Below are positions 1,649 through 53,910 of a DNA stretch of 64,000 nt, in pieces. The translations under genes were made by a program, and so were the position numbers. This DNA is from Alteromonas aestuariivivens (GTDB lineage: Bacteria; Pseudomonadota; Gammaproteobacteria; Enterobacterales; Alteromonadaceae). A model generated the notes under the pieces. It saw only the letters and a list, made by a program, of their open reading frames with translations. It ran no database searches and was not told where the DNA came from. The stretch covers positions 248,001-312,000 of the forward strand of contig NZ_QRHA01000002.1 in the NCBI RefSeq assembly GCF_003367475.1, in the 5' to 3' direction. The first letter of the stretch is position 1. Each line of letters starts with the position of its first letter.

Positions 1649-2054
1649 CCAGAGCGTTGCAAGGTATGTTCATCCTACCTGAAAATGACATAAATCGATG
1701 ATATTAAGTAGTATTTTTGGCGTGTTGGAGAGCTTGCAAGGATATCTGAAGTATGGGCTTTTGCATTTGGAAATGAATGTATGAGCTTATCATCTGTTGT
1801 GAGCTTCCTGATTGCGGTTAATATAAATTACATAATTGACGTGTAATCTGGGTAACCGTAAACCGAGCCAGAGAATTAGTAAGGAGTTGAATAAGAAGTA
1901 TAAATTGCATTTGAGGAGTTTGGTCTGATTCAGACATACCTCAGAAGCATTTTTAAAAGTGCTGCGCAGTTTGGATTGGAACTTGCATTAGATTTACCAA
2001 GCAGTAAAAACGTGATCTCAGTATTGGTTTTTTACAGAACAAGGATGTGTGCTT

Positions 2055-3455: not shown

Positions 3456-3884
3456 ATAAGAAAGGAAATGAACAATTATTTAATAAAATGTTATCTGCAT
3501 GCGTTATTTTTTGTGGGTAAAAATTATTAAATTGTATGGATTTTTTCTTTGATTGAATTTCGATAATTATACTTGACTTTCATTTGAGGCAATTGCAATA
3601 GTAATCCTAGTTTAGGTTTAAGAAGTGAGTGCCAGTTTTTCTTTTTTATTTTTGCTGTTCGTTTTTTCAGGGAGAAAATTGTACGAACTGACGAAATGAT
3701 AGCTGGCACGTTTTTTATTATTTAAAGGCTCTATAAGATGCAGTTCCCATGAGTGCAATGCAGTTCGCACTCACCGGTGATTTAGGGATGAAGTGAAACA
3801 AGGGAAGAAATTAATGTTTTTTCCAAAAAGTTGTTTGGTGAAATTTTTAGAAAGATATTTCACCGACAAAAGGGATGTTGCATT
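3456..3884. other. AT-rich intergenic region inside EPS locus A
   Basis: This is 429 bp of strongly AT-rich DNA without a supported gene. Near its 3' end are two ATGCAGTTC direct repeats and a 7-bp stem (3750-3756 with 3767-3773, TGAGTGC/GCACTCA). No T-run follows, so this is not a classic terminator. It may hold a second promoter for the genes from 3885 on. Confidence 0.4.
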
Positions 3885-7520: not shown

Positions 7521-8044
7521 CAAGAAATACATTAGTAATATTACTGCTTAGCTTTGCCGGACTTGTTTGTGCGCAGGATACCGAAAGCTATCTGATTGGA
7601 ACAGGAGATCGGATCGAAATCTTGGTACACGGGGAAGATGATTTATCGTTTGAAACGACCATTGGCATTGAGGGCACCATCCTCTACCCCTTTTTGGGAG
7701 AGTTAATGATTGCAGGGCGGACCACTAATGAGGTGCGTGGGATTATCACTCAGGGGTTAAAGGGGGACTACCTTGATGCGCCCAGTGTGAATGTATCAAT
7801 CATTGAATACCGGCCATTTTTTATTCTCGGCGAGGTCAAAAGCCCCAAAAGCTATTCCTACCGCCCCGGTCTAACGGTAGATCAGGCGATAGCGATGGCC
7901 GGAGGGCTTTCGGAGCGAGCGAGCTCGGAAGCCATCGAATTGAAAAGAACAATTGATGGTGAGGTCAAGGTATTTAAAAAGGTTTCTCTGAACTATCTAG
8001 TGAAACCCGGCGATACCATCACAGTATCAGAAAGCTTTTTCTAA
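7517..8044 (+). CDS. Short polysaccharide export (OPX/Wza-like) protein, locus A
   Basis: 175 residues: signal peptide cut near LVCA/QD, then a Poly_export domain (YLIGTGDRIEILVHGEDD, TTIGIEGTILYPFLGEL) and one SLBB-like domain (FFILGEVKSPKSYSYRPG, VDQAIAMAGGL). E. coli Wza is about 379 residues and forms its own helical pore in the outer membrane; this protein lacks that part and has no proper lipobox. It therefore fits the short, periplasmic OPX class that relies on a separate barrel protein. The barrel gene directly upstream overlaps by 4 bp, and the Wzc-type kinase follows after 36 bp. Confidence 0.93.
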   Translation: MTRNTLVILLLSFAGLVCAQDTESYLIGTGDRIEILVHGEDDLSFETTIGIEGTILYPFLGELMIAGRTTNEVRGIITQGLKGDYLDAPSVNVSIIEYRPFFILGEVKSPKSYSYRPGLTVDQAIAMAGGLSERASSEAIELKRTIDGEVKVFKKVSLNYLVKPGDTITVSESFF

Positions 8045-8080: not shown

Positions 8081-10279
8081 ATGGACGCAGAACGCAAAAG
8101 AATGGAAAGTCAGGGCGAGATAGATCTTTCCGTTTATATACAGCCATTAATGGAATACAAATGGCGCATTATAGCCGCAGCATTAATTGCAACGGGAATC
8201 GCTGCAGCTTTGTTGACCAAGGTAATACCAGAATTTAAGGCAGAGGCAACGCTACTAATAGAGACGGAAGAGAATAAAGCGGTTTCCATTGGGGATTTTT
8301 ATGCCGTTGATAGCAGTCGTCAGGAATATTTGCTGACTCAATTTGAAATTCTAAAGTCGGAACAGTTGGCTGAGCAGGTGATGGACGAATTCAATCTGCA
8401 GACCAAACCCGAGTTTAATCCCGCTTTGATTGCCGAGAAAAGCTTCCTAGAAAAATTGTTTATTGATCTGTTTGGAAAGGAAAAAGTTTCAAACCAACCC
8501 TCTCAAGAAAAACTGGATTATGAAGCCAGGCAGATAACCTTGGACAATTTCAGATCAAAAATTAAAGTCAGCCCGCTTACGGGAACTCAACTGGTAACTA
8601 TCTCAGTTGAATCGCAAGATCCGGAATTGGCAGCGCAACTTGCGAATGCACTGGGAGATGCATACATTGAAAGTCATCTTGAAGCTCGTATAGGAATGAC
8701 CAACAAAGCTTTAGACTGGTTGAAGGAGCGCAGTGAACGGGTGGCAAGCGAACTCCAGCAGGCAGAACTGGCGTTACAGAAGTTTAAAAACGACGAACAG
8801 ATTGTCGATATGGAAGACGGTTTTCAGACCATGAATTCCAGTACTATTCAGAATCTCAATCGCAGCTTGTTGGAGGTCCGAAATACAAGGATAGAACTCG
8901 AGGCTTTGATTTCCCAACTGGATAGTGCGCTGACTTCAGATTTTGACCTCAGAACAATCAACAAGTTAAATGAGAGTATCGCGGTTCAAGATTTGATAAA
9001 AGCCGAGCGAGTTGCAGAAAGCAGACTTATAGAGTTGGACCAACGATATGGGCCAAAGCACCCAAAAATGATTGCAGCAGAAGCGGATTTAAAGCAAACA
9101 AGAGCCAAGCTTGAATCCCAGTTAAGCAAAGAGGTAAATGAATTAAACAATCAGTTGAAAGCGCTAAAAACCAGGGAGTCACAACTGGAGCGCGATCTTG
9201 GGGAAGCCGAAGGGCAATACCTGTTAACGGGCCAAAAAGAGGGGGAATACCGCAGGCTTCAGGCCAATGTTGAGCGTATTTCTGAGCTTAATAATTTAAT
9301 GGCAACCCGTTTCAAGGAAATGGACATCACCCGGGATTTCAACGCAGCCAATGCCCGTTTTACCGACCCCGCCAAAGTGCCAATTAAACCGGTTAAACCC
9401 AACAAGAAACTGATTTTAGGGTTGACGTTTTTCTTAACCACTTTGATTGGCTGCATTTTTACACTTACGCTGCGTTTCATGAACAACACGGTTCGCACTG
9501 CAACTGATGTTGAGGATGAACTCAGTCAGCGGTTGCTCGGTGTTATCCCAGGCTTAAAGTCAGAAAAAAACAAACCTATCCCTTTATATACCTATTTTGA
9601 TCAAACCAAACACAGCTTCAGTGAAGCGGTAAAATCACTGCGTACCAGTTACTTGCTCACTTACTTAAATCAGCCTAATACCAGTACGCTGATTACATCT
9701 GCTGCGCCGGGAGAAGGAAAATCAACGGTGGCGTTGAATTTTGCCTTTTCGTTGTCGCAAATGGGCAAGGTGCTCTTGATTGATGCGGATATGCGGCGCC
9801 CGTCTATTGCAAAACGCATGTCGCTGCCGGGTTATCAACCGGGGCTTTCCAACGTGCTCTCAGGCAGTCATACCCTGTCGCAATGCATTATTACCGATGC
9901 GAAAAGCGGCGTAGATTTGCTGCCTGCCGGCCAGGTTTCTCCAGACGCACTCGAGTTGATTTCATCCAGTTCCTTTGCAGAGCTGCTGGAAAAACTAAAA
10001 GGGCAGTACAGCAGGATTATCATTGATTCTCCCCCTTGCCAGGCTGTCAGTGATGCGTTGGTGCTTGCAAAGTACGCGGATTCGACCCTGTTTGTCGTGA
10101 AGTCTGCAGCCACAGGTAAAGAGGCAGTGAAAAGTGCGCTGGGCAAGCTAGCATTTGTGGGCGCAAAAATTGATGGGGTAGTGATGAATTCGGTGGATAT
10201 GACGGCTTTTTCCGGTCAGTACAGCGAGTTTTATGGGTACTTGGATTATGCCTCTGAAAAGGAAGCAAAGGCTTCGTAA
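8081..10279 (+). CDS. Wzc-type polysaccharide co-polymerase / tyrosine autokinase, locus A
   Basis: A 732-residue inner-membrane protein that controls chain length and couples synthesis to export. The N-terminal Wzz domain has a first membrane segment (~24-45), a long periplasmic coiled-coil region with the GPKHPKM motif near 325, and a second membrane segment near 450. The cytoplasmic BY-kinase domain has Walker A AAPGEGKST (~543), Walker A' VLLIDADMRRP and Walker B IIIDSPP. The C-terminus carries four tyrosines in QYSEFYGYLDY, the usual autophosphorylation cluster. AAGGAG sits 5 nt before the ATG. A CpsB-type phosphatase is present only in locus B (56122). Confidence 0.95.
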   Translation: MDAERKRMESQGEIDLSVYIQPLMEYKWRIIAAALIATGIAAALLTKVIPEFKAEATLLIETEENKAVSIGDFYAVDSSRQEYLLTQFEILKSEQLAEQVMDEFNLQTKPEFNPALIAEKSFLEKLFIDLFGKEKVSNQPSQEKLDYEARQITLDNFRSKIKVSPLTGTQLVTISVESQDPELAAQLANALGDAYIESHLEARIGMTNKALDWLKERSERVASELQQAELALQKFKNDEQIVDMEDGFQTMNSSTIQNLNRSLLEVRNTRIELEALISQLDSALTSDFDLRTINKLNESIAVQDLIKAERVAESRLIELDQRYGPKHPKMIAAEADLKQTRAKLESQLSKEVNELNNQLKALKTRESQLERDLGEAEGQYLLTGQKEGEYRRLQANVERISELNNLMATRFKEMDITRDFNAANARFTDPAKVPIKPVKPNKKLILGLTFFLTTLIGCIFTLTLRFMNNTVRTATDVEDELSQRLLGVIPGLKSEKNKPIPLYTYFDQTKHSFSEAVKSLRTSYLLTYLNQPNTSTLITSAAPGEGKSTVALNFAFSLSQMGKVLLIDADMRRPSIAKRMSLPGYQPGLSNVLSGSHTLSQCIITDAKSGVDLLPAGQVSPDALELISSSSFAELLEKLKGQYSRIIIDSPPCQAVSDALVLAKYADSTLFVVKSAATGKEAVKSALGKLAFVGAKIDGVVMNSVDMTAFSGQYSEFYGYLDYASEKEAKAS

Positions 10280-10420
10280 TTGTGTGGGCTGCACGGCCAA
10301 AAATTTCTGGCTGAGCGAGAACATGATAAATGGTCTGTTTTTACGTTTTTAACCTGGGCAGACCGCAGCCAACGGTATGGATTAGTTAAGTTAGCCCAAA
10401 AGGGAGCGACGGAGTCTGAT

Positions 10421-11380
10421 ATGAAAAATGTGTTTATAGCGGGCCACAATGGAATGGTTGGTTCTGCCATCCATCGAATACTGGCAAAGCGGCAGGATGT
10501 AAAAGTAGTGACCTGTAGCCGACAGGAACTTAATTTGCTCAGCCAGCAATCAGTGAATAATTTCTTTAAAACCAATCAGCTGGATGAAGTTTACCTGTGC
10601 GCTGCAAAAGTTGGAGGAATTCACGCAAATAATCAGTATCCCGCTGAATTTATCTACGAAAACCTCATGATGGAAGCAAACATCATTCATGCTGCACACA
10701 CACATGATGTTCAACGTCTTCTTTTTCTTGGGTCTTCCTGTATTTACCCCAAAATGGCTGAACAGCCAATAACGGAAACATCGCTTCTAACTGGCAAACT
10801 GGAAGAAACCAACGAACCTTATGCAATCGCAAAGATCGCAGGTATTAAGCTGTGCGAAAGTTATAACAGGCAATATGGCAGAGACTACCGGTCTGTTATG
10901 CCAACAAACCTGTATGGACCCAATGATAATTTTCATCCGGAAAATTCACACGTCATTCCCGCACTCATTCGTAGGTTCCATGAAGCCAAGTTAAGCAACG
11001 AAAAAACGGTCAAGGCCTGGGGTACCGGTAAGCCCATGCGCGAATTTCTGCACGTTGATGACATGGCCCAAGCGAGTGTTTATGTGCTCGAACTGGAATC
11101 GGAAATATACAACCTGCACACAGAACCAATGACCAGTCATGTGAACGTGGGAAGCGGGGTTGATTGCACAATCCGCGAATTGGTTGAAACCGTTGCGGAA
11201 GTGATTGGTTACCAAGGGGAGATTGTTTGGGACACCAGTAAACCTGATGGCACTCCAAGAAAACTAATGGACGTTTCAAAATTAGAAAAGTTGGGATGGA
11301 AAGCAAAGATCACTCTTAAAGAGGGCCTCAGCGAAACCTATCAATGGTTTTTGAGTAATACCGAAACAATTCGTAAGTAA
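10421..11380 (+). CDS. fcl: GDP-L-fucose synthase
   Basis: A 319-residue epimerase/reductase that turns GDP-4-keto-6-deoxymannose into GDP-L-fucose with NADPH. It shows the NADP loop [10 protein letters not shown], the GSSCIYPK active-site segment with Ser and Cys, and YxxxK in [10 protein letters not shown], plus the [20 protein letters not shown] stretch typical of Fcl/WcaG. The frame is open to a TTG at 10280, right after wzc, but GGAG 6 nt before the ATG at 10421 and the conserved [11 protein letters not shown] start fix this as the beginning. With gmd at 5200 it completes GDP-fucose synthesis for locus A. Confidence 0.96.
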
Positions 11381-11414: not shown

Positions 11415-12506
11415 ATGTTGATGTTGGTGGATTTACCTAAACCAGTTCATGGTCTTTCGAATATCAATAAGAAAATGGTAGAGGTATTGAAGACAAGAAG
11501 TGTTGATACAAAAGTTATCAATACAGCACCTTCTTACGCGAGTAAATATCACAACCACTGGCAATGGCCGATAATTAAGATATTTCACACTTTGCTGTGT
11601 TATGTGCGTTGTTTATGGAATTTACTCTTCGGTAAACATCGCTATGTATATCGCTCAATCAATGGTGGAACGGGCCAGATTTACGATCTGGCTTATCTTG
11701 GCATGGCCCGCCTTTTGGGGCGCAGTATTCTTATTCACCATCATTCATTCAACTACCTGAATAAACACTCCGGGTTATTTCGCTTCCTTTTAAAAATTGC
11801 AGGAAGGAATGTCTCTCACATCGCGTTGGGCAAGCGAATGAAAGAGAAGCTGACGGAGTTGTACGATGTGCCTGATTCGTCCGTTTTTGTGATTTCAAAT
11901 TTGGCTTTTTCCGAGCTGACTGACTCAGTCTTTGAATACAGTGAAATGAATAATGATGGTGAAGTGAAAATTGGTCACTTGTCGAATTTATGCTTCGAAA
12001 AAGGTCTGGATGTATTTTTAGATGCCTGTAAGGGTTTGGAAGACATCGGTTTTCCATACTCGGCCTACGTTGTAGGGCCTTGTACCGATGACAGGAGCAA
12101 GGGAAAATTAAATGCTTTCTTAGAGACTTCAAATAATTTGTCTTATTTGGGGCCGTTGTACAGTGATGACAAAGAAAATTATTTGAGGTCGCTGGATTGC
12201 TTTGTTTTTCCGACAAAATACCGGAATGAAGCTGAACCACTGGTTTTGTATGAGGCGGCAAGGTACGGATGTTTTCTTATCGGGTCAGACCGGGGATGTA
12301 TGGCCGATTCCATCAATTCATTGGGTGGAATGGTTTTAAAGCAGGCAGTAACGTATGACGAAGTGGTGACTGCTTTAACCGAAGCATTGAAAAACAATAT
12401 GTTTTCAAAAGATAAAAGAGAGGAGCGAATCTCTAAATACCGAAGCTTGGTTGCAGAATCGCACAATGCTTTAAACCACCTGATGGAAGAAATTCATGCC
12501 AAGTAA
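11415..12506 (+). CDS. Glycosyltransferase, GT4 family
   Basis: 363 residues with a GT-B layout. The C-terminal donor half shows IGHLSNLCFEKGLDVFLDA (the GT4 loop after the first strand of the second domain) and the E-x7-E motif in EAEPLVLYEAARYG. The N-terminal half begins MLMLVDLPKPVHGLSN. It should transfer a sugar to the growing lipid-linked repeat on the cytoplasmic face; donor and acceptor are unknown. It overlaps the acetyltransferase gene downstream by 11 bp, so the two are probably co-translated. The region from here to about 17.5 kb is visibly more AT-rich than the flanks, as is usual for repeat-unit genes. Confidence 0.85.
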   Translation: MLMLVDLPKPVHGLSNINKKMVEVLKTRSVDTKVINTAPSYASKYHNHWQWPIIKIFHTLLCYVRCLWNLLFGKHRYVYRSINGGTGQIYDLAYLGMARLLGRSILIHHHSFNYLNKHSGLFRFLLKIAGRNVSHIALGKRMKEKLTELYDVPDSSVFVISNLAFSELTDSVFEYSEMNNDGEVKIGHLSNLCFEKGLDVFLDACKGLEDIGFPYSAYVVGPCTDDRSKGKLNAFLETSNNLSYLGPLYSDDKENYLRSLDCFVFPTKYRNEAEPLVLYEAARYGCFLIGSDRGCMADSINSLGGMVLKQAVTYDEVVTALTEALKNNMFSKDKREERISKYRSLVAESHNALNHLMEEIHAK

Positions 12507-13056
12507 TTATCAGGATCTGAGCCTGTTCAAAGTGCCCGGTGATTTCAGGGGGCGGTCCGCGTTCATTGTGCAATTGTGGTGGTTCGTAAGCGCTACCCTG
12601 TTTAAGTTCTCACCGCAGTTCGCCTATGGTTGGCGAAGAATGCTGTTGAGGATGTTTGGTGCGAAAATAGGTAAAGGGGTTATTGTTCGCCCCACAGCAC
12701 GTATTACTTACCCCTGGAAGCTTTCTATCGGTGATTTTTCATGGGTAGGTGATCATGTTGAATTGTATACCTTAGGAGAAATTTCCATTGGGCGGAACAG
12801 CGTTGTGTCGCAAAGAAGTTACTTGTGCACCGGTAGTCATGACCTGAAGTCTTTGAGTTTTGATATATACCAGCAGCCCATTGTCATTGAGGATGAGGTG
12901 TGGATAGCGACTGATGTATTTGTGGCTCCCGGGGTAACGATAGGTACAGGAACAGTGATTGGTGCAAGAAGCTCAATTTTCAAGGATGTACAGGGCGGCG
13001 TTATTTATATGGAAAAGCGGGCAGTGGTAACCAAGGCACGAAGCGAGAATGGATGA
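12496..13056 (+). CDS. WcaF-like O-acetyltransferase (left-handed beta-helix)
   Basis: 186 residues of the hexapeptide-repeat acyltransferase family, closest in look to colanic-acid WcaF. The N-terminus QDLSLFKVPGDFRGRS is typical of that group; imperfect hexapeptide turns follow (IGKGVIVRPTARI, IGDFSWVGDHVEL, ISIGRNSVVSQRS), then the CTGSHD catalytic His segment and IEDEVWIATDVFVAPGVTIG. It should acetylate a sugar of the repeat unit from acetyl-CoA. Its start lies inside the preceding glycosyltransferase gene. Confidence 0.9.
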   Translation: MPSNYQDLSLFKVPGDFRGRSAFIVQLWWFVSATLFKFSPQFAYGWRRMLLRMFGAKIGKGVIVRPTARITYPWKLSIGDFSWVGDHVELYTLGEISIGRNSVVSQRSYLCTGSHDLKSLSFDIYQQPIVIEDEVWIATDVFVAPGVTIGTGTVIGARSSIFKDVQGGVIYMEKRAVVTKARSENG

Positions 13057-13317: not shown

Positions 13318-14811
13318 ATGTCGTTAGATAGTCCTAATTCATCCAGTAGTTTTAAGCGGCGCACGTTAATTGGCTTCATTCTAGCGATTCTGACGATGAT
13401 GGCGACGAAGTTTCTGACCCTTTTGAGCCAATGGATTATCGGTTTCTATCTTGAGCCCCAGGAGTTTGGAGAGTACGGCATCATACTTGGATTGCTCGCC
13501 TTCTTTGGAGCTTTTCAGGAACCGGGAATTGGTAGAATTCACACTCAACTCAGAGCCGCCGCTGGCAATATGTGGCGGCGGTCCATAATTGTGAGTGCTT
13601 TTCTCGGTGTATTTGGTGCAACTGCAATGTGTCTTGCATCATCATTGATTTATGGCATCGACTCACGAGTCACTCTCATGGCACTGATTGTTGCGCTGGC
13701 CTTTCCTGTTTTTGGTCTTGCTAATTTGTTAAAGGCCAAGCTGGAAATTCTGGAGGATTATCGAACCCTTGCCGCCGAGCAGTTTTTGAGAGGTTTTTTA
13801 ACAAATGTGTTGCTTGTTGCCGCGGTTTTAGTGGGCTTTAGCTCGTATTCTTTCTCTCTTTCACTGACACTCGCAGTGGTCATATCCAGTATGTACATGT
13901 TCTATAAAACGAACAGGGTTTCTAATTTGAAAATTGCGTCTATGGATGACTACGAGCCCTACAGTAAAGTGGTTGTGTGGTCGTTAGTTGGTGCCATTCT
14001 ACTGAGCATGTCCATCAGAAGTGATTACTTTGTACTGAGCCTTACGCTGGATGAATACGCTCTTGGGCTTTATTATTTTGGCTTTATGGTTTCCACAAAC
14101 GTTGGAATTCTGCTGACTCAGGCGATACGCTCAATTTTAATGCCAGCGTTCAGCTCGATAGGTTCAGACGTAACTAAATCGGAATACTTCTTTAAGTCCT
14201 GCAGATATCTCCTGTTTTTTACTTCGTTTTTGTCAGTCGCTGCAATCATCCTGCTACCTTCAGCTATCCACTTTTTATGGCAGGGGCGTTGGGATGAAGC
14301 CACTATTATTTGCCAGGTTTTCATTCTCTCGCTTCCGTTGCGATTGCTCACTCCATTGTCTCTGGCCTATCTGGAAAGTATTGGCGAATGGAAAATTCGG
14401 GCCGTCAGTCTGGCCATTGACGGCATTTCTCTCATGATTTTTTGCTACGTTGGCGCGGTACTGGGCGGGTTGATAGGCGCTGTGGTCAGTTGCACTGTTC
14501 AAAGAGGAATATTCGGCCTGGTGCCATTCTTTATTGCCAATCATATTGCAGAGCGAAAAACTGAACAGGATAAGAGCAGGAAGTTGCACGTTGATTTGCT
14601 CCTGTATTATGGATTCATGTTACTTCTGGTTGTGAATTATCAGTTCTTTTATGACGGTAAGGGTATTAGTTCTTACCTGATAGATTCATACCCCCTAATC
14701 TTTGGTGTTTTTCTGTTGTTTAGTGTTGTATTCAGTCGTGATCTTTACCGAGATACTTTTAGATCATTTGCAACTCAATTGTCTTTTGGTTTGAGAAAAA
14801 TAAAGGCTTGA
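13318..14811 (+). CDS. Oligosaccharide flippase, Wzx type
   Basis: 497 residues, almost entirely hydrophobic, with about a dozen membrane segments and the N-terminal layout of the polysaccharide-transport (MOP) superfamily: a positively charged start (FKRRTLIGF), then a first helix and the amphipathic WIIGFYLEPQEFGEYGIILGL segment, where the FGEYG turn is typical of Wzx. It should flip the undecaprenyl-linked repeat across the inner membrane in the Wzx/Wzy route. A 261-bp AT-rich gap without recognisable genes precedes it. The start ATG has only a weak GAG ribosome-binding site. Confidence 0.88.
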   Translation: MSLDSPNSSSSFKRRTLIGFILAILTMMATKFLTLLSQWIIGFYLEPQEFGEYGIILGLLAFFGAFQEPGIGRIHTQLRAAAGNMWRRSIIVSAFLGVFGATAMCLASSLIYGIDSRVTLMALIVALAFPVFGLANLLKAKLEILEDYRTLAAEQFLRGFLTNVLLVAAVLVGFSSYSFSLSLTLAVVISSMYMFYKTNRVSNLKIASMDDYEPYSKVVVWSLVGAILLSMSIRSDYFVLSLTLDEYALGLYYFGFMVSTNVGILLTQAIRSILMPAFSSIGSDVTKSEYFFKSCRYLLFFTSFLSVAAIILLPSAIHFLWQGRWDEATIICQVFILSLPLRLLTPLSLAYLESIGEWKIRAVSLAIDGISLMIFCYVGAVLGGLIGAVVSCTVQRGIFGLVPFFIANHIAERKTEQDKSRKLHVDLLLYYGFMLLLVVNYQFFYDGKGISSYLIDSYPLIFGVFLLFSVVFSRDLYRDTFRSFATQLSFGLRKIKA

Positions 14812-14907: not shown

Positions 14908-16296
14908 ATGAGTATGTATATAAGAAAAGGTGTGCTTGGTTCACTGGTTATCGTGATGGCTTTATGCACGCCAGTGCTCATACTCAGTATGTCAGCTGAT
15001 AAGGCTGTCTTTGGCTCATTTATTGCCTTGCTAGCATTTTCTTTGTTGACTTTCATCCATCTTGCGCGCGGGAACCGGGATTTTTTGTATAGCGCAGTGC
15101 TGTCTTTTTTTTACGTTTTTTTGTTTCTCGCACCGGCTTTACAAGTTTACGCTGATAAATATCCATGGATAGGACGATATTCATCCGATGAAATCAACTA
15201 CGGATATATCATTACGTTTCTGTCTCTGGTTGGTTTTGGTTTCGGCTATGAACTTAATAAAAAGTTTGGCGAGAGGAAACAATCTGACATTAAGTATGTG
15301 CTTTCAAATCGGGGGGCATTTCGATTATACATTGTAGGTTTGGTATGTATATTTGTGGGGATAGCCTTTTTGGGAATGGAGTCTATTATTTCACCCAGAA
15401 ACATGGCGACAGATTCTGTTTTAGAGTCATTGGAAAGTAGCGCTGTCGCATCCATACTTCAGTCCTTTTTCAGGGTTTCTGGTTTTCTTTGTCTGGTCAT
15501 ATTGATTGTTGATTGGATCTCAAACCGAAAATCATTGAATCAAAGTCAAATTACGCACAGGCTTCTCATGATAGGTTCCCTGTTTCTAATCGTGATGTTT
15601 TTTAATAATCCTGTTTCAACAGCCCGGTTCTGGTTTGGTTGTATAGTCCTTTCGTTGTTTCTTATTTATATCGTATATCGCACAAAATATTCGGCCGGAT
15701 TTTGGTTTTTACTTAACATTGCTATCGTGACTTGTGTTTTTCCATTGATGGATTTGTATAGGAACAGCCTGGAAACCAGTGTAGTCGAAGCAGTTGTAAA
15801 TCTTGATACATTCAGCGAACTATCCACAAGTCCCGATTTTGATGCCTTTCAGCAACAGTTAAATACCGTCCGCTATACTAATTTGCATGACCATTCGTTT
15901 GGTCTGCAAACACTTTCTTCCTTATTATTTTTTGTACCCAGGAATGTCTGGCCATCCAAAGCACAACCTACGGGTAAAGAGTTAGCTAATAAGCTTGGGT
16001 ATCATTTTGATAATCTTTCTGCGCCCTTATCAGCAGAATTTTATATGGATGGATGGTTGTTTATGGTCGTAGGCGGAATGTTCGCCCTGGGTTTTATATA
16101 TAGATTCTTTTACAACCGCTTCAGAACCAGCACCGATGTATTTAGTGTCTCCTTTTTTATATTCATGTCCTGTTACCAGATGTACTTTCTTCGGGGAAGC
16201 CTGATGGCGGTTATAGGGTATATGGTTGTAGGTATGGCCATTTTATTTTTGATTAGAATGAGCAAAGGGCTCTTCTTTATCCAAAGCAAACATTAA
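14908..16296 (+). CDS. O-antigen/EPS repeat-unit polymerase, Wzy-like
   Basis: 462 residues with roughly twelve predicted membrane helices and a large loop near residues 290-375 (SPDFDAFQQQLNTVRYTN, then FFVPRNVWPSKAQPTGKELA and LSAPLSAEFYMDGW), a pattern shared by oligosaccharide repeat-unit polymerases. It sits between the flippase and a glycosyltransferase, as expected for Wzy. Polymerases diverge fast, so the assignment rests on topology, the PRxxWPxKP-like stretch and context. No strong ribosome-binding site is seen before the ATG at 14908. Confidence 0.8.
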   Translation: MSMYIRKGVLGSLVIVMALCTPVLILSMSADKAVFGSFIALLAFSLLTFIHLARGNRDFLYSAVLSFFYVFLFLAPALQVYADKYPWIGRYSSDEINYGYIITFLSLVGFGFGYELNKKFGERKQSDIKYVLSNRGAFRLYIVGLVCIFVGIAFLGMESIISPRNMATDSVLESLESSAVASILQSFFRVSGFLCLVILIVDWISNRKSLNQSQITHRLLMIGSLFLIVMFFNNPVSTARFWFGCIVLSLFLIYIVYRTKYSAGFWFLLNIAIVTCVFPLMDLYRNSLETSVVEAVVNLDTFSELSTSPDFDAFQQQLNTVRYTNLHDHSFGLQTLSSLLFFVPRNVWPSKAQPTGKELANKLGYHFDNLSAPLSAEFYMDGWLFMVVGGMFALGFIYRFFYNRFRTSTDVFSVSFFIFMSCYQMYFLRGSLMAVIGYMVVGMAILFLIRMSKGLFFIQSKH

Positions 16297-16306: not shown

Positions 16307-17467
16307 ATGAAGCTACTGTACGTTCAACACCTATTGTCTTCGTATCGGTTACCTCTGTTCAACGATATGGCGACCAACAGTGCAGTGGAACTGACGGTAT
16401 TTGCCAAGCAACCTGATGATGGGATGGGCTATGATGTCAATGATGAGTCAAGCTTTGAGTTCAGATTTATCCCCGCGAACTGGAACGTTTTTGGGCGCGG
16501 CCTTCGCTGGTCTTCAGGGTTTCTGAGGTGCTACCGAGAGACCGATTGCATTATCCATTTCGGTGATTATAAATTTTTGACAATATGGGTATGCCTGCTG
16601 CTTTCGGTTTTTAACAAAAAGAAATTTTTTCTTCACGGACAGGGAGGGTATAAAAATGACAGGCTCGTTGGGCGGCTGATTTACATCATTTTTGTTGCTT
16701 TGTCTGATGGCTATATATGTTACACCGAGTACTCGCGCAAAGCCCTGTTGGGGAAATTACCTTCGTTTCTGCACCGTAAAGTATTTGTGGTTTCCAATAC
16801 GCTGTATTTCCCCAAAATGCCACTTGAAAACAAAGTGACACATGAAAAATCACGTGAAGGGCAGGAATTGCTCTATTTGGGACGACTCCGAAGATCATGT
16901 GGTATTGAGTTCTTACTGGAAGCTGCCACTGAGGCAAAATTGAAGGTTAAGGTGATTGGTGGAGGGGATGAGGAGTACATCAATGCTTTGTCTGAGAAAT
17001 ACAATTCCATTGCCACATTCTATGGCCCTGTATTTGAACTTGAAAAGCAGCGAGAAATCGCCCAGTCTTGTATTGCTGGTGTTTACGGAGGGAATGCGGG
17101 TCTGAGTGTTGTTCATTACCTGTACCTGGGGTTGCCAGTAATTGTGCATAGCGATATTGCCAGTCATATGGGGCCCGAACCCAGCTACATTTCTCACGGT
17201 TATAATGGCATTCTATTTGAAAAAGATAATCCGGAATCTTTAATAAACGCGTTAATCCAAATTAAATCTGACGACTTGTTGCGGGCTAAATTGTCAGAGA
17301 ATGCTTTATCAACTTTCACTGCATTGAGTAAGCCAAGCATGGCAGACAAAATGCTGCAGATTGTTGAAGGCACTGCAAGCAATGAACGTGGTCATGCAGT
17401 ATCCCTGTTGATAGTATTAGCATTTTTGACAACGTTGGTAGCAGACGTTTCGCCTGTGGCCGTTTGA
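16307..17467 (+). CDS. Glycosyltransferase, GT4-like
   Basis: 386 residues. The N-terminus MKLLYVQHLLSSYRLPLFND is the pattern of GT4 enzymes that act on lipid-linked intermediates (HxxxxYRxPLF). The second half carries LLYLGRLRRSCGIEFLLEAA, a GGGDEEY loop, VYGGNAGLSVVHYLYLGLPV in the donor-binding region, and a DNPESLINALIQI helix. The C-terminal ~25 residues (VSLLIVLAFLTTLVADV) are hydrophobic, unusual for the family; they may be a membrane anchor or reflect a late frame shift near the 3' end. It follows the polymerase by 10 bp. Donor and linkage are unknown. Confidence 0.82.
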   Translation: MKLLYVQHLLSSYRLPLFNDMATNSAVELTVFAKQPDDGMGYDVNDESSFEFRFIPANWNVFGRGLRWSSGFLRCYRETDCIIHFGDYKFLTIWVCLLLSVFNKKKFFLHGQGGYKNDRLVGRLIYIIFVALSDGYICYTEYSRKALLGKLPSFLHRKVFVVSNTLYFPKMPLENKVTHEKSREGQELLYLGRLRRSCGIEFLLEAATEAKLKVKVIGGGDEEYINALSEKYNSIATFYGPVFELEKQREIAQSCIAGVYGGNAGLSVVHYLYLGLPVIVHSDIASHMGPEPSYISHGYNGILFEKDNPESLINALIQIKSDDLLRAKLSENALSTFTALSKPSMADKMLQIVEGTASNERGHAVSLLIVLAFLTTLVADVSPVAV

Positions 17468-17779
17468 CAGCAAGTTAAAAAGTGCCGCCGTTGGTGATCA
17501 CTGTCAGCACACATTCATTACCTAATAAACGGATACGGGCGAAAGAGTTTGGTGTGTTTTAAATGTGATCTCGGTCAATAAAATTTTGAACAGTGCGATA
17601 CTCAAAATTTATTGGTGTATTTGATTTTGTGTATTGGGTAGTATAAAAAATGCACTGCCATTAAACTCAGGATGAGTTTATATTTATAAAGGCCTCGGGC
17701 ATAGGCTGCAAGTCGACACGTGTTTGTAAAACGAATCGGAAGATAAACACCATGTTCCAGCTGTCAGGGAGGATTGCAA
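17468..17779. other. Intergenic region before the A-T-TE / HPPD module
   Basis: 312 bp without a supported gene. It is AT-rich, with a TATAAA-like box near 17642. The gap may separate the NRPS-like/HPPD pair as its own transcription unit; no clear terminator hairpin with a T-run was found after the preceding gene. Confidence 0.35.
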
Positions 17780-20371
17780 TTGATATTCGAAGAACGCTCT
17801 AGTGCGGTTGAAGTAGATGGTGACCATAATTTACTGAGGGTTGTTTTTGAAAATGTAATCGCCAAGCCAGACCATATTGCCGCATGTGATTCAAAAAAAT
17901 CCATCACCTATATGCAGCTTTGGCAAAGCTCGCTTGCCTTGGCAAAGGCACTCAAAGGCTGTGGAGTATGTAAAGCCTCATCGGTTGTTGTGTTGTTGGA
18001 TCACAACGCCGACAGTATCACTTCAATGTTGTCCGTGTTTATGTTGGGGGCTGTTTATGTTCCTCTGGACGTGTTCTCCACACAAAAATCACTTCGGGAT
18101 ATTTTAACCAGGCTGTCTCCATCGGCTGTAATTTGCAGCGACAATCATTCTGATCTCATTGCCAGATTAGACATTCCCGTCGTTACTAAGATTGATTATG
18201 CAATATCTTTAGCGGACATCGAGTTACTTGAATACCCGGACGACATAGAGGAGGTTGGGCCCCAGGATCTCTCACATATGTTCTTTACTTCGGGAACGAC
18301 GGGTGTGAGTAAAGGGGTGGTTTCAACGTACGCCGCGCTGCATCAGTACATCGGATCTGCAATGGCTGAATTTGGGTTCAGCCAACAGGACCGGTTTTTG
18401 TCTATTGCCCGGCCTTCTTTCAGCATCAGCCTTTTTGAAATACTGGTACCTGTCGTTGCGGGTGCGGGGGTGCACGTATTGAGCCGGCGGGAAGTTCTGG
18501 ATTTAAGTCTGCTGAGTAAATCCTTAACCAATGTGACTACGGCCCATATTGGGCCAGGGTTGCTGCGCCTGCTTTTGAAGCATCTCGAGAAGATTGGTCA
18601 CGTTAATGGGGAGTACGTAAATCTCAGGCATTTGTCGTCGGGTGGAGATGTCGTCCCTCAGGATTTGCTCACCGAGGCCAGTAAGCTGTTCTCCAACGCC
18701 GAAGTTTTCATTCTGTATGGTTGTACTGAGATTAACTGCATGGGAACTGTCTACAAATTTATTCCCGGAGGTGAAAGCTGGATTGGACGGGTAGGCAAGC
18801 CAATGAAAGGTGTGCAACTGCGATTGCTGGATGATACCGGCGTAGCTGTGGAAAAGGGTGAGGTCGGTTCAGTACACTTTATTTCGGCAGGCTTGGCTAA
18901 ACAGTATTTTCAGGATTCCGTGCTGACGAAACGCAAATTTCACGTAATGCACGGTGGAGAACGTATTTATGATTCCGGAGATTTGGGCCGGATAACGGAG
19001 TCTGGTGATTTGGAGCTTGTAGGGCGTTCGGATTTCCAGGTAAAGGTCCGGGGAATGAGGGTTGAAATTCTCGCCGTTGAAAAGGCCATCCGGGCTTATG
19101 ATTGTGTTGAAGATTGTATGGTAGTAGGGGAGCCTGAAGACAGTGGCGTGGTGAGCCTAAATGCCTATTTGGTGCTTAATAATTCAATGCCCTTTAACCT
19201 GGAAATATTCAGAAACTACTTACGGGCAACATTGAATGACTTCATGATCCCGAACAAAATATACAAAACGCCCAAACTTCCGCTCAATAAAAACTTAAAG
19301 CTAGACAGAAGTAAAGTTCCGGAGCAGGCCGAATTTTTAATACCTTGTCGGAAAAATAGCTCCGGAACGGATGAGAAATCCAAATTATTATCCGAAATCT
19401 GGCAGGAAGTTTTGGGAACCGAAGCTGTAAACAGCGAAGACAGATTTTTTGATGTAGGCGGAGACTCATTAACCGCAGTATCGATGATTGCCAAGATCAT
19501 GGATGTTTATAATGTGACTTTAAGTTTTGATGATTTTATTGAGAACCCTTCATTTCAAGTCTTAGTTGATAAACTGGAAGGCATCCCGGCTCTGAAAGGA
19601 TCCGGCGTTGTTAAACTAAAATCCGGTGATGCTGGTTTGCCACCAGTGATTCTTATTTGTGGGGCGATAATTTACAAAGATCTGGTTGATGCCCTCGATG
19701 TGAAAAATGAAGTTTACGTGATTTATTTAGATGAAGAAGTGGATCTGATTCTTTATGGTGATAAGTCGAATTCCTACCGTAAAGCATCCAAATTTGAATA
19801 TATAGCATCCAGGTACCTGGAAAAAATCGATAATATCAATATTGAAAATGGTTGTTTTTTAGGTGGTCATTCTTTTGGTGGAATATTGGCTCTGGAAATA
19901 GCCTCTACGATTGAGATGAGAGGCGTGCGGGTTTATGGGGTATACCTGTTCGACTCATTGATTCCAAACTATTTCAGCCTGCAAGGTCCGATAAGAAAAA
20001 GTTTGGCGTATTTGAGGAAAAAGCAATTGCTGATCACCTCCATCATTAAAAACAAGATGTTGAAGATAAAAGATTCAAAAATATCCAATAAAGCGTTGCT
20101 TATGGCTCATGTGGATGCGTCTAGCGGATTCAGTTTTCCACAGATTGCTGCAAAAATTGTTTTATTCCGGGCGAAGTCCAGGTGGCTTCTGGACCCCGAT
20201 GTGAAGGATTTGGGGTGGTCTCCGTATTATCCTGAACTCATCGTTAAAGACGTAGACGGTTGTCATATGGGGATCATGGAATCTGATAATGTTCATCAAA
20301 TTGCTGGTGACATTATAAATGACTCGAAATTATATCTCCCGAAAATGAAGGACAGATTATGGGAAACCTGA
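17780..20371 (+). CDS. NRPS-like A-T-TE enzyme (adenylation, carrier, thioesterase; no condensation domain)
   Basis: About 863 residues. The adenylation domain (~15-510) has core motifs FFTSGTTGVSKG (A3), LYGCTE (A5), YDSGDLG (A7), a GRSDFQVKVRG A8 and LPLNKNLKLDR with the A10 lysine. In A4 the usual FDxS reads FSIS, so the Asp that binds the substrate amino group is a Ser. The carrier domain (~530-600) has the phosphopantetheine Ser in VGGDSL. The thioesterase (~615-863) has GGHSFGG, with Ser ~698, Asp ~725 and His ~829 spaced like type I thioesterases. GGGAGG at 17767-17772 is spaced for the TTG at 17780; a TTG at 17774 is too close. Single A-T-TE enzymes such as RalA and XfsA dimerise arylpyruvates; a keto or aryl acid substrate is inferred here. 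The 3' end overlaps the HPPD gene by 13 bp. Confidence 0.88.
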   Translation: MIFEERSSAVEVDGDHNLLRVVFENVIAKPDHIAACDSKKSITYMQLWQSSLALAKALKGCGVCKASSVVVLLDHNADSITSMLSVFMLGAVYVPLDVFSTQKSLRDILTRLSPSAVICSDNHSDLIARLDIPVVTKIDYAISLADIELLEYPDDIEEVGPQDLSHMFFTSGTTGVSKGVVSTYAALHQYIGSAMAEFGFSQQDRFLSIARPSFSISLFEILVPVVAGAGVHVLSRREVLDLSLLSKSLTNVTTAHIGPGLLRLLLKHLEKIGHVNGEYVNLRHLSSGGDVVPQDLLTEASKLFSNAEVFILYGCTEINCMGTVYKFIPGGESWIGRVGKPMKGVQLRLLDDTGVAVEKGEVGSVHFISAGLAKQYFQDSVLTKRKFHVMHGGERIYDSGDLGRITESGDLELVGRSDFQVKVRGMRVEILAVEKAIRAYDCVEDCMVVGEPEDSGVVSLNAYLVLNNSMPFNLEIFRNYLRATLNDFMIPNKIYKTPKLPLNKNLKLDRSKVPEQAEFLIPCRKNSSGTDEKSKLLSEIWQEVLGTEAVNSEDRFFDVGGDSLTAVSMIAKIMDVYNVTLSFDDFIENPSFQVLVDKLEGIPALKGSGVVKLKSGDAGLPPVILICGAIIYKDLVDALDVKNEVYVIYLDEEVDLILYGDKSNSYRKASKFEYIASRYLEKIDNINIENGCFLGGHSFGGILALEIASTIEMRGVRVYGVYLFDSLIPNYFSLQGPIRKSLAYLRKKQLLITSIIKNKMLKIKDSKISNKALLMAHVDASSGFSFPQIAAKIVLFRAKSRWLLDPDVKDLGWSPYYPELIVKDVDGCHMGIMESDNVHQIAGDIINDSKLYLPKMKDRLWET

Positions 20372-21387
20372 CGGAAAAAGTGCATGTTTTGGGATTGTCA
20401 TTTATCGAATTTTCCGGAAGCGAGCCCGAAAAACTTCGTAAAATATTCGACAAAACAGGCCTTAACGAATTCAGCTGGATGGACGACAGCAATGTAACCT
20501 TGCACGTTAACGGTGGTGTGCGCTTTATTTCAAATCCCACTGCCCATCCTCCTCTGCAGCGATTCAGAAATGTTCATGGCAGGGGAGTGAGCGCCATTGC
20601 GTTTATGGTTGACGACTCCGAGCACGCCTTTGCTCTGGCACTAAGGAACGGCGCTGAGCGAGCGGAAAGTGCGTTCTATGGGCTTAGGGCCATCAAAGGG
20701 GTGGGTGAGTCTTTCATTTATTTTATAGATGCTGAAGAGGAACAAGCATTGCTGAAGCGTTTTTCGTTTTTTCAGCAACTCAAAGGCCAGACGAATTATC
20801 TGAAAATAGACCATTTAACTCATAATCTGTTTCCTGGTGGAATTCAAAGATACAAAGATTTTTACAACAGGCTGTTTGGTTTCACGAGTTTGCGAAGCTT
20901 TGATATTAACGGGGCAAAAACAGGCTTAATCAGCGAGGTTGTCGCCAATGAATCGCGGACAGTTATCATTCCGCTAAACGAAACTAAAGATGATAAATCG
21001 CAGATTGCAGAATATTTGCGGGATTACGGCGGTGAAGGAGTTCAGCATATAGCGTTGCTGTCTGCCAACCTGGAGAAGGTTGTTGAGGAATTGTCCGCCG
21101 CAGGCATTGAGTTTCAGGATACGCCGGATACCTATTACGACCTGTTGGATGCCCGCTTGCCCGATCACAAAGAGTCGGTAGAGATTTTGCGTAAGCACCG
21201 CATACTGCTCGATGGAGGGGAAAAGCAGGGCGGGGGTTACCTGCTTCAGATTTTCACTAAAAACAGCATTGGGCCGATCTTTTTTGAGTTCATTCAAAGA
21301 AAAGGTAACGACGGGTTTGGCGAAGGGAATTTTCAGGCTTTGTTCGAGTCCATTGAACTGGATCAGGAGCGCAGGGGCGTTATTTAG
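20359..21387 (+). CDS. hppD: 4-hydroxyphenylpyruvate dioxygenase
   Basis: 342 residues, full length. It is a two-domain vicinal-oxygen-chelate enzyme that converts 4-hydroxyphenylpyruvate and O2 to homogentisate in tyrosine breakdown. The three Fe(II) ligands are visible: His152 (DHLTHN), His230 (GEGVQHIAL) and Glu310 (PIFFEFIQRKG), spaced almost as in the Pseudomonas enzyme. DTYYDLLDARLPDH and the C-terminal DGFGEGNFQALFESIE are the standard signature. Related 4-hydroxymandelate synthase is an alternative, but the C-terminal signature favours HPPD. The usual neighbours (homogentisate dioxygenase, fumarylacetoacetase, tyrosine aminotransferase) are absent; instead it is translationally coupled to the A-T-TE gene. 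Confidence 0.95.
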   Translation: MGNLTEKVHVLGLSFIEFSGSEPEKLRKIFDKTGLNEFSWMDDSNVTLHVNGGVRFISNPTAHPPLQRFRNVHGRGVSAIAFMVDDSEHAFALALRNGAERAESAFYGLRAIKGVGESFIYFIDAEEEQALLKRFSFFQQLKGQTNYLKIDHLTHNLFPGGIQRYKDFYNRLFGFTSLRSFDINGAKTGLISEVVANESRTVIIPLNETKDDKSQIAEYLRDYGGEGVQHIALLSANLEKVVEELSAAGIEFQDTPDTYYDLLDARLPDHKESVEILRKHRILLDGGEKQGGGYLLQIFTKNSIGPIFFEFIQRKGNDGFGEGNFQALFESIELDQERRGVI

Positions 21388-21480: not shown

Positions 21481-23583
21481 CTAGAGACTCTGGTTGGCTG
21501 AAGTTACAGTGAAATTATCAACTTTGACAGGCACGTTGAATCTGGCGTTTGATTCAAGTTCAAATTGCAAAGAAGAGATTTCCTGCACTTTGGCTTTTGC
21601 TACAACATTACTGTAACCGACGGAAGTTCCGTCTTCCTTGGTCACTGATATTTCATACTTTTCAGTGTAAGAGTTGGCAGGGTTCACAATTATTCTGATG
21701 TTGTACCATTGATCAGAATTCATGTGGGAATTAGGTATTGCCTGATCACCATTTACAGTGCGGTTTTGCAGTTCACTACTGCTTTTATCGTTATTGCATA
21801 ACTCAATTTCGATACCAGAATTTTTGTCTCCATCGGTTAATTTCGCTACCAACGTTGATCTGCCAATGCAGCGAGACTCTAAGTTAATATCGAAGCTGAT
21901 TACTGTTGCTGAATCAACAGACACCGGAAGAAACTCGTAGGTGAACCCATTTTCCCCTTGTCCTGCAATAAATGTGAGTTGATCTGGTAGGGCATTGCTT
22001 TTTCTTGGAAATGGAGACTGAGAGTTTGCCAGCTCAACAGAACTGCGCCCAGCGCTGTTCGTTTTCCTTGGCCAGCTTAGGTACTGTTGGTTTTGCACTT
22101 CAGCGTGGCGAAGACTGCTCATACCCCAATAAGTAAGGTCCAACACATCCTCTGCATCATGGATATTGATCGACGTTTTACCTACCATCTCCTGAATCAC
22201 TTTATTGTCCCTAAGTATTCTGAATACAGGTCTCCCTTCCTGGAGCGGGATTTTAAAACTTGTCATGCCTGCATCGGCATATTGCTCATAGGTTGTACCA
22301 TCAATTTCTATTGCTAACGTTGCTGGAGTTGTGAGAAATGCCAGCAGTTCAATTTCATTTCTTGGGGCTTCACCATTTACAACATTTACCGAATCGGACT
22401 GAACGTAACCTGACAATGGCGTGTCTGTGCTGTGCTCCCGATAGAAAGCGTACATTGCATCACGCTTTATTTCTGGCTGTTGCTGATTTTTAAACCAATC
22501 AATGTAGTAGGCAGTTAGGTCATAAAAGGCGTATCCAGTTTGTGTACTGGGAGTGATTTGTGTGGATTCAGAGTAATCGTTCCATGTGATAACCTGTACC
22601 CAATCAGCACCGCCGTTTATGGCGCTTTCCCACAGCGTTCTGTAGGCTTCACTATTACCGGCTTCAGTAAAATTAGATCTTTTAGGGCGGGCATCCTGCG
22701 GAGCCACTGGCGCCATCCACCAAACACCTTCGTCGTGGGCCTGGCCAGCATCGTCAAGCAGATTCAATGCGCCGGAAGGAGTTCTCAAGCCCCAGTCAGA
22801 CACGCCAATCACATATTCCTGAAAGGCTTCTGGTTCTTGTTGTTTGAACTGTTGCAGATCTGAAACCCAACCTTGGTAAAGAGGCATAAGAGCGACATTA
22901 ATACCTTCTGCCTTTAGTTGATCGAGAGTTTGTTTCCACCAGGTCGGGCTGAAATTTTCCGCCAAATAAGGTGCTACAACCAATCTCCCATCTTTCAGAC
23001 GAAACGCGGCAGGACTCTTTGATAGTTCTCTGATAGTCGGGATAAACGCTTCCGGTTCTTTGTTGGGATGAAACTGCGCATTCATGTCGGGCATGATCAC
23101 AATTTTGAAGTTGCCTAACTTTTCTGCCGCTTCAACAATCCTCATGGCCCGAGTCCAGGTGCCTCCGGTATTGCTTAGTATATTAACGGTAAAACCATCC
23201 AAACCGATTGCTGCAGCTTGTCTTACTTCGAATTCTGCATCAGCAGTGCCCCATTCAGTACCACTGACGTTGTAAGGTACACGCGCTATCGGGCGTTCTC
23301 TGAGAAGGCCACCCTTATTCAGAAATTTACTGTTTTCGCCATAAGGATTCAGGTAGTGCAGATCATAGTAATCTTCACCAGGGGACATATTGTTCATCAT
23401 CTGTGAATAAGCGGGAAAATAGTGGGCGAACACTAATCTGGACTCTTTTTGTGCTCCGCTTGAATCACTAACAGGGTCAAAGCTCAGGAAGGAAGAAATG
23501 CTGGATTCGGCTGCTGAACTGAAGCTCAGGGGCAGCGTAGAGAATAACGCTGATAGTAAAGTTCTTTTTACTAAACTACACAT
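21481..23583 (-). CDS. Secreted GH71-like glycoside hydrolase with C-terminal lectin-like domain
   Basis: 700 residues with an N-terminal signal peptide (LVKRTLLSALFSTLPLSFSSAA). The main domain (~45-400) has VFAHYFPAYSQ, AAAIGLDGFTVNI and the VITWNDYSES segment seen in GH71 alpha-1,3-glucanases and related GH99-like enzymes. Residues ~520-695 look like a concanavalin-type jelly-roll. GAGG lies 8 nt before the ATG. Placed convergently against locus A, it may trim or release polysaccharide in the periplasm or outside; the alpha-1,3-glucan specificity is family knowledge, not visible here. It is not in the EPS operon strand, so it is separately regulated. Family assignment is by eye and moderately sure. 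Confidence 0.7.
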   Translation of the reverse strand: MCSLVKRTLLSALFSTLPLSFSSAAESSISSFLSFDPVSDSSGAQKESRLVFAHYFPAYSQMMNNMSPGEDYYDLHYLNPYGENSKFLNKGGLLRERPIARVPYNVSGTEWGTADAEFEVRQAAAIGLDGFTVNILSNTGGTWTRAMRIVEAAEKLGNFKIVIMPDMNAQFHPNKEPEAFIPTIRELSKSPAAFRLKDGRLVVAPYLAENFSPTWWKQTLDQLKAEGINVALMPLYQGWVSDLQQFKQQEPEAFQEYVIGVSDWGLRTPSGALNLLDDAGQAHDEGVWWMAPVAPQDARPKRSNFTEAGNSEAYRTLWESAINGGADWVQVITWNDYSESTQITPSTQTGYAFYDLTAYYIDWFKNQQQPEIKRDAMYAFYREHSTDTPLSGYVQSDSVNVVNGEAPRNEIELLAFLTTPATLAIEIDGTTYEQYADAGMTSFKIPLQEGRPVFRILRDNKVIQEMVGKTSINIHDAEDVLDLTYWGMSSLRHAEVQNQQYLSWPRKTNSAGRSSVELANSQSPFPRKSNALPDQLTFIAGQGENGFTYEFLPVSVDSATVISFDINLESRCIGRSTLVAKLTDGDKNSGIEIELCNNDKSSSELQNRTVNGDQAIPNSHMNSDQWYNIRIIVNPANSYTEKYEISVTKEDGTSVGYSNVVAKAKVQEISSLQFELESNARFNVPVKVDNFTVTSANQSL

Positions 23584-53882: not shown

Positions 53883-53910
53883 GCTCGCCTATTCACGTTA
53901 AGGACATGCG

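Follow-up and report, generated by a model that had tools for sequence, protein, structure and literature searches.

Why should a bacterial exopolysaccharide (EPS) locus end in an enzyme of the nonribosomal peptide synthetase (NRPS) kind and a dioxygenase of tyrosine metabolism? The question is raised by a stretch of 64,000 nucleotides from Alteromonas aestuariivivens (contig NZ_QRHA01000002.1, positions 248,001 to 312,000; called the window below and numbered from its first base), in which a synthetase of adenylation, thiolation and thioesterase domains (A-T-TE) is encoded immediately ahead of a 4-hydroxyphenylpyruvate dioxygenase (HPPD). The original prediction placed the two genes at the end of an EPS locus with an overlap of 13 bp, and Pfam, NCBIfam and the coordinates confirm this. 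The answer we tentatively prefer, from sequence comparison, is that the pair may form an aryl-acyl cassette, here serving the EPS locus; we hold this to be nearly an even chance.

The synthetase gene (17780..20371, forward strand) encodes 863 aa. It opens with a TTG start at 17780, seven bases after a GGAGG Shine-Dalgarno sequence (the two elements span 17768..17782 on the same strand), and closes with a stop codon at 20369-20371. AMP-binding (190 bits), AMP-binding_C (26.9 bits), PP-binding (49.5 bits) and Thioesterase (41.5 bits) domains each exceed their Pfam cut-offs, and the Pfam scan detected no condensation (C) domain. In the alignment, the Asp of motif A4 is kept in all nine comparison NRPS A domains and is replaced by Ser in the window A domain. 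The passages of PMC11355689 that deal with this Asp describe it as contacting the amino group of amino acid substrates, and in the relevant parts of two further sources an aliphatic residue is usual at its place in keto-acid A domains (PMC10949194, PMC10316625). The window pocket code, mapped by motif alignment, reads S-I-F-H-S-G-L-C-M-K; Asp is lost at code position 1, and the residue in its stead is Ser, not the aliphatic one expected of a RalA-type enzyme. At code position 5, the fungal enzymes covered by the pertinent section of PMC10316625 have Asn with 4-hydroxyphenylpyruvate and Ile or Val with phenylpyruvate; Ser or Leu/Ile occurs there in the clade that shares the S-I-F motif. As judged from these residues, the window A domain has a non-amino-acid pocket and belongs to a separate clade, marked by Ser in place of the amino-acid-binding Asp. 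In the TE domain, 15/15 sequences keep Asp and His, and at least 90% of the alignment rows keep Ser.

How widespread is this kind of A domain? An alignment scan of genome_contigs with HPPD matched at least 593 stretches, and 80 loci were kept, which also serve as control HPPD loci. The best of the 80, L076 from an uncultured Alteromonadales genome, has 55% identity; no A-T-TE was found in the L076 stretch itself, but an A-T-TE relative of full length (33% identity, 377.8 bits) is encoded at another place in the same genome. The other 24 genomes tried for A-T-TE gave at most 215.6 bits. A two-protein A-T-TE profile was then searched in 293 relatives of the L076 genome (E ≤ 1e-80, three candidates scored per genome), and 33 of the 34 best places were read, the 34th having an internal stop; weaker places lie outside the set read, and the family counts are lower bounds. 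A-T-TE proteins with the S-I-F pocket account for 24 of the 33 places, with the TE part of L198 not aligning and the T-TE of L201 forming a separate frame; L200, L203 and L204 are A-T-TE-like loci with the usual Asp. Among the other six of the 33, the motif occurs in L243 (a 2,105-aa frame) and in one of two in L244 (a 3,303-aa frame), and is lacking in the remaining four, including the second of L244. The clade therefore totals 26 further loci in 25 genomes. In the A-domain tree, 25 S-I-F rows (with the window, without L243 and L244) form one side of a 100/100 branch against 12 others.

The clade looks narrow in distribution, because none of the 37 loci examined, out of the places listed by the profile search of 369 genomes of the class and 398 of the phylum (E ≤ 1e-130, two candidates per genome), is a further member; FSIS is absent from all 37, and two lack a readable A4 motif. 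With the window proteins alone, exact-word scans found no A-T-TE in viral_contigs or genome_contigs and no HPPD in viral_contigs, alignment scans of viral_contigs gave only distant matches, and the best plasmid identities by tblastn were 28% for the NRPS and 46% for HPPD. Nothing above 225 bits besides the own gene was found in 146 relatives, 369 genomes of the class and 59 of the genus.

Does the A domain keep the same company elsewhere? Beside it, the 26 other loci encode HPPD in eight cases (L179, L180, L181, L198, L199, L201, and the two multi-module NRPS loci L243 and L244, which also carry the labels L247 and L248), a compact HPPD-like protein in 12, and neither in six. HPPD lies 40 bp downstream in L179, 79 bp downstream in L199 and 6 bp upstream in L201, with other orientations in L180, L181 and L198. 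The L179 pair has the same order and strand as that of the window, at 56% identity for the A-T-TE and 70% for HPPD. Identity at codon positions 1, 2 and 3 is 0.62, 0.75 and 0.36 for the former and 0.76, 0.83 and 0.35 for the latter, a pattern that indicates selection on both proteins and therefore a pair that is not due to chance. Six HPPDs of A-T-TE loci, that of the window and that of L076 form a clade of eight rows (100/100) against 58 comparison HPPDs, which comprise HPPDs of relatives, alternate loci from the remaining 79 kept by the scan, and the host's own other copy; the clustering was matched in none of 500 shuffles. The HPPD of L247 falls inside this clade, 87% identical to that of L201, and the nine rows still group (SH-aLRT 100). 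Seven of the eight partner HPPDs and that of the window are thus one clade, apart from ordinary HPPDs that include the host's second copy.

The compact partner, of ~220 aa, is a relative of HPPD's catalytic half. For the two of these proteins that were scanned, TIGR01263 matches at 6e-8 and 5e-6, below its cut-off; one, compared with solved structures, retrieves HPPDs at 1e-5; the others were recognised through their match to the protein of L188. Inspection by eye shows H, H and E kept at their positions. The pocket code follows the partner: SIFHSG[IL]CMK in 7/7 A-T-TE rows with HPPD, window included, and SIFH[LI]G[NC]C[ML]K in 12/12 with the compact protein, with five SIFHSGICMK and one SIFLSGICMK in the partner-less loci. 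This correlation fits a substrate supplied by the partner, yet may reflect a single evolutionary change. That the two genes act together, as originally proposed, is supported because an HPPD or a compact HPPD-like protein recurs beside the same kind of A domain (8/26 and 12/26 loci); comparison likewise supports a specialised HPPD rather than a tyrosine-degradation copy.

Some members of the clade are unusual in form or site. The A-T-TE frames of L183, L185 and L186 (by length also L184 and L197) reach ~1,100 aa; an N-terminal extension of 220-290 aa, to which Pfam gave no match in those scanned, is present in these frames and in the L201 and L243 A proteins. As read by eye, the S-I-F gene opens the S10 ribosomal-protein operon in L162, L190 and L248, an odd housekeeping site, with a GT2 and ilvH beside the gene in two of these loci and HPPD in the third.

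What the A domain does with its substrate is suggested by the two multi-module NRPSs, both of which adjoin HPPD. The domains of L243 are, in order, the S-I-F A domain, a T, a C and another A. The protein of L244 has three A domains, two C domains and one TE, and the S-I-F domain lies ahead of its first C domain. Because it starts two NRPSs, the S-I-F domain probably loads an acid destined for a further step, and that acid would be an acyl donor and not merely a self-condensing keto acid. The 87%-identical HPPDs of L201 and L247 precede, respectively, an A protein with a separate T-TE and the A-T-C-A NRPS; therefore the module behind the starter has been swapped.

The HPPD of the window (20359..21387, forward strand, 342 aa; bases 20359-20371 are shared with the synthetase frame) scores 325.6 bits to the NCBIfam equivalog TIGR01263, above the cut-off of 277, and its closest solved structures are HPPDs. 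Its metal ligands H152, H230 and E310 and the examined substrate-site residues are intact, and the 2-His-1-Glu ligands are identical in 8/8 clade rows and 58/58 other HPPDs. Across 14 active-site positions, whose residue roles we take to be those assigned in HPPD, 13 are invariant in all eight clade members; at the remaining one, which follows the metal Glu, the clade has F or Y and other HPPDs mainly I. A further 21 positions mark the clade. It is likely, as these positions are kept, that the clade HPPDs carry out the ordinary reaction to homogentisate. The Phe of the LLQIF motif, which we take to tell HPPD from mandelate synthase, is also kept in the window, and identity as a hydroxymandelate synthase was judged unlikely on that account. 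The host's second HPPD (421.5 bits), only 43% identical to that of the window, has as neighbours an HgmA-like protein (PF20510 at 53 bits, above its cut-off; the NCBIfam hmgA model at 78.5 bits versus a cut-off of 511) and a TyrR-like regulator (491 bits versus a cut-off of 576). No other HPPD in the 146 relatives searched is more than 47% identical to that of the window. GC content is 0.44 for the A-T-TE and EPS genes, 0.47 for HPPD and 0.51 downstream.

The surroundings of the clade differ from those of ordinary HPPDs. The genes wza and wzc are both present in 14/26 loci (the 12 compact-partner loci, L183 and L199), versus 0/80 control HPPD loci (43 of which are at least 19 kb: 0/43) and 0/3 Asp-code A-T-TE loci. 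Besides Wza and Wzc, L199 encodes a glycosyltransferase (GT), a phosphoglycosyltransferase (PGT) and a nucleotide-sugar (NDP-sugar) dehydratase; an O-antigen-ligase-type gene and genes of the rmlABCD type are present in L179, and L180 and L201 each have a GT2. Comparison of these loci supports EPS loci as a recurrent home of the clade, whose A-T-TEs are repeatedly accompanied by Wza, Wzc and WcaJ genes. An HmgA-like gene occurs in 0/27 loci and in none of L247-L249, versus 31/80 control HPPD loci (20/43 of the long ones). There is none in the 64-kb window either, where hmgA does not stand beside hppD as in tyrosine degradation, and no other tyrosine-catabolism gene was noted there by eye in the open reading frame lists, the only way these were sought.

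In 11 of the 12 compact-partner loci and in L184, acyltransferase genes accompany the A domain: an MBOAT with an SGNH-like protein in eight loci and an AT3 protein in four. The MBOATs of L188, L189 and L193 and the AT3 proteins of L184, L185, L186 and L197 pass their Pfam cut-offs; the L188 MBOAT scores 172.7 to DltB, whose cut-off is 375. The SGNH-like protein has no Pfam match and is labelled from motifs read by eye (GSNSLFG, DTEYHLN). A phosphopantetheinyl transferase (PPTase) gene is present in L183. Other neighbours were noted in passing. Between HPPD and the sugar phosphotransferase of L199, a 296-aa protein (L199:5862-6749) with a weak GNAT-like match (E 0.17) is a candidate acyl-transfer step. 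In L180, a 1,569-aa NRPS (L180:3554-8263) with a formyltransferase, a carrier and a luciferase-like monooxygenase inserted in an A domain adjoins the A-T-TE, near its HPPD and GT2. Asparagine-synthase-like amidotransferases lie near the A-T-TE in L181 and L198 (Pfam) and in L202 (by eye).

So, how might the pair serve a polysaccharide? HPPD, with its canonical active site, would convert 4-hydroxyphenylpyruvate to homogentisate; the A domain would adenylate homogentisate, or possibly 4-hydroxyphenylpyruvate itself, and load it onto the T domain; and the TE, its triad kept, would transfer the aryl acyl group to an acceptor, for which a sugar in the polysaccharide of the locus, or in a precursor of that polysaccharide, is the most plausible candidate. 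Alternatively, a further transferase rather than the TE might act in the window, and in the compact-partner sister loci the MBOAT-SGNH pair or the AT3 protein could carry out the final transfer, as in the Dlt pathway. A more specific idea, possible but rather doubtful, is a new class of EPS to which an HPPD and an A-T-TE dedicated to the task attach aryl groups of the hydroquinone (homogentisyl) or a related kind.

Several observations weigh against an EPS-serving aryl-acyl cassette. Loading of the T domain is only putative because the genome has a single PF01648 PPTase, of AcpS size. Six of the 26 loci (L162, L202, L182, L183, L184 and L190) lack a dioxygenase in the stretch read, although the genomes of L162 and L202 hold an HPPD elsewhere (L076 and L199). 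The HPPD of L248 is ordinary, divergently placed and outside the clade, and on the tree it is an independent recruitment. Of the eight HPPD-partnered loci, L199 is the only one with both wza and wzc; no EPS genes were found in the NRPS loci L247 and L248, and L181 and L198 were not recognised as EPS loci. The compact-partner loci form one group (91/99 in the A-domain tree), and because these 12 are one lineage the EPS link perhaps represents three or four events, not fourteen. Neither MBOAT nor AT3 was found in the eight HPPD-partnered loci and the window by single-query phmmer, which could miss divergent proteins; for MBOAT the search covered the whole 64 kb (one query, E ≤ 1e-3), and the window therefore lacks a Dlt-type set. 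MBOAT-SGNH and AT3 proteins commonly move acetyl groups. A kept TE would be superfluous in a Dlt-like scheme and is typical of condensing A-T-TEs. The main points here, namely the kept TE, the missing MBOAT and the mixed settings of the HPPD-partnered relatives, sustain rivals in which the product is small.

In one such rival, which we consider unlikely, the A domain activates 4-hydroxyphenylpyruvate and the TE condenses two units to a furanone, pulvinone or quinone, as RalA or an atromentin synthetase would, with HPPD drawing on the same pool or giving a homogentisate unit and the secreted product merely associated with the slime. The A-T-TE layout without a C domain, the conserved TE residues and the loss of Asp at code position 1, as in keto-acid domains, speak for it. 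However, that position is Ser instead of the reported aliphatic residue, position 5 is Ser instead of the Asn of fungal enzymes using 4-hydroxyphenylpyruvate, a C domain follows the same kind of A domain in two genomes, as befits an acyl donor, and a diffusible-only product is disfavoured because it would leave the residence of 14/26 loci beside EPS export genes unexplained. The original prediction, which named as candidate outcomes a small aryl product of this type and transfer of a tyrosine-derived aryl acid to the polysaccharide, is supported in part: a functional pair outside tyrosine degradation still stands, but self-condensation of 4-hydroxyphenylpyruvate is not established because the first residue of the pocket is Ser. 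Co-occurrence with EPS genes, which the same account proposed to look for in other genomes, holds for the clade as a whole but, with a full HPPD as partner, only for L199. The usual HPPD pathway neighbours, said to be missing, are indeed missing as far as HmgA is concerned, and by eye for the others. Two outcomes it named as damaging, activation of an ordinary amino acid and pairs confined to complete tyrosine-degradation operons, are not borne out by the sequences, in which the Asp is absent and HmgA-like neighbours are lacking. The second small-product rival is a small aryl ester or amide, formed if the TE hands an HPPD-derived acid to a small alcohol or amine with the EPS location incidental. 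It agrees with the NRPS clusters L247 and L248, the NRPS beside the pair in L180 and the asparagine-synthase-like genes of L181 and L198, but the pair of the window, that of L199 and, with less clarity, that of L179 sit among polysaccharide genes, the compact-partner branch is in EPS loci throughout (12/12), and we think this rival quite improbable.

Other alternatives leave the polymer without an attached aryl group or the pair without a joint task. A homogentisyl product of the pair might oxidise and polymerise in the EPS matrix as a pigment or crosslinker with no enzymatic attachment to sugars, consistent with the canonical active site of all eight clade members compared and with the lack of an HmgA-like gene near the pair; yet the second HPPD of the host is itself beside an HgmA-like gene, and homogentisate alone would need no A-T-TE, which leaves this very unlikely. 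Mere neighbourhood, with the A domain serving another non-amino acid and HPPD a second tyrosine-degradation copy, draws on the six loci without a dioxygenase and on the A-domain substrate being only inferred. Against it stand the recurrence of the adjacency in several lineages of the A-domain tree, the separate HPPD clade together with one independently recruited HPPD, the 13-bp overlap and the lack of HmgA-like neighbours, and we judge it highly unlikely. The clade does lie within the NRPS A-domain superfamily and its sister loci have Dlt-like neighbours, as would suit an ordinary amino acid moved to the EPS with HPPD incidental, but with Ser in place of an Asp that stands in 9/9 comparison domains, amino-acid decoration is the most improbable of the explanations considered. 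An aryl-acyl cassette serving the EPS locus remains the reading that we prefer.

The polysaccharide locus of the window lies ahead of the pair, all on the forward strand. It starts with WcaJ, an undecaprenyl-phosphate glucose phosphotransferase (2049..3455; TIGR03023, 536 bits), followed by a GT read from the sequence and unscanned (3831..5168) and the GDP-mannose 4,6-dehydratase Gmd (5200..6315; model scan). Next come a Wza-type export protein (Poly_export, 7517..8044; PF02563, 74 bits), a Wzc-type co-polymerase and tyrosine kinase (8081..10279; model scan) and the GDP-L-fucose synthase Fcl (10280..11380; NF047922, 539 bits), whose true start is probably within the frame. A group 1 GT (11415..12506; Pfam) precedes a WcaF-family hexapeptide acetyltransferase (12496..13056; NF007797, 261.8 bits), the sole recognised acyltransferase of the locus. 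A Wzx-type flippase (13318..14811; PF13440, 66 bits), a Wzy-like polymerase (14908..16296) and a second group 1 GT (16307..17467; Pfam), which ends 312 bp upstream of the pair, complete the set. The locus accordingly has the PGT, Wza, Wzc, Wzx and Wzy of a Wzx/Wzy EPS locus, with Wzy only below curated cut-offs.

Convergent with HPPD, a GH71 family hydrolase is encoded on the reverse strand (21481..23583; Pfam). A search of 58 other genomes of the genus gave no match to it; it has a 44% paralogue in its own genome (G000:C12:57619-58902) and could act as an EPS trimmer. A second EPS locus occupies 50141-63314 of the window, with WcaJ-like (50141-51592, reverse strand), outer-membrane (52089-53336), Wza-like (53337-53882) and Wzc-like (53911-56115; phmmer) genes, and glycosyltransferase- and sulfotransferase-like genes, read by eye, after the Wzc-like one.

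Whatever the product, NRPS-like chemistry and tyrosine-derived aryl acids are here linked to bacterial slime. Aryl groups on the polymer would be a new way of decorating a polysaccharide and would probably alter how it adheres, binds metals and behaves in redox reactions; like the catechols of mussel adhesive, they could hold metals, form crosslinks when oxidised and attach cells to surfaces. A small molecule would instead mean a new natural-product family whose starter unit could be recognised. In both cases the recurrence of the pair, the pocket code and the two dioxygenase types are direct, testable handles.

The pairing is not described in the titles and abstracts of the open-access literature searched, a body with most subscription journals outside it; several known systems resemble parts of it. 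RalA, XfsA (both compared by description only) and the fungal atromentin and polyporic acid synthetases share the A-T-TE layout with no C domain, a residue other than Asp at position 1 and the TE triad. The window enzyme differs in that positions 1 and 5 are both Ser, the first of them instead of Val, and unlike theirs, its clade is tied to HPPD or an HPPD-like protein, often within EPS loci, and has NRPS starters among its relatives. The extra dioxygenase domain of PpaA1 is, in the portion of PMC10316625 that treats it, a putative Fe/2OG type judged inactive, and not an HPPD. The window HPPD is like those of TIGR01263 in scoring above the equivalog cut-off and in keeping metal ligands and substrate residues, but it belongs to a clade of its own with no HmgA-like neighbour found, and some loci use a one-domain relative in its place. 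The exosortase-A-associated acyl ligase set (TIGR03098 etc.) likewise places an adenylating enzyme inside an EPS locus, and L198 has a hydrolase-1-like gene of that set (78.6 bits versus a cut-off of 168); architecture and partners differ, and the window protein falls far below the TIGR03098 cut-off (152.5 versus 592). In the Dlt pathway (ligase DltA, carrier DltC, MBOAT DltB and SGNH protein DltD), a carrier-bound group is taken over by an MBOAT and an SGNH protein, according to the relevant passages of PMC12148441, and eight sister loci similarly pair an adenylating enzyme and carrier with MBOAT and SGNH-like proteins. Unlike Dlt, the system described here has A, T and TE in one chain, a non-amino-acid pocket, an HPPD-like partner and an EPS of the Wza/Wzc type.

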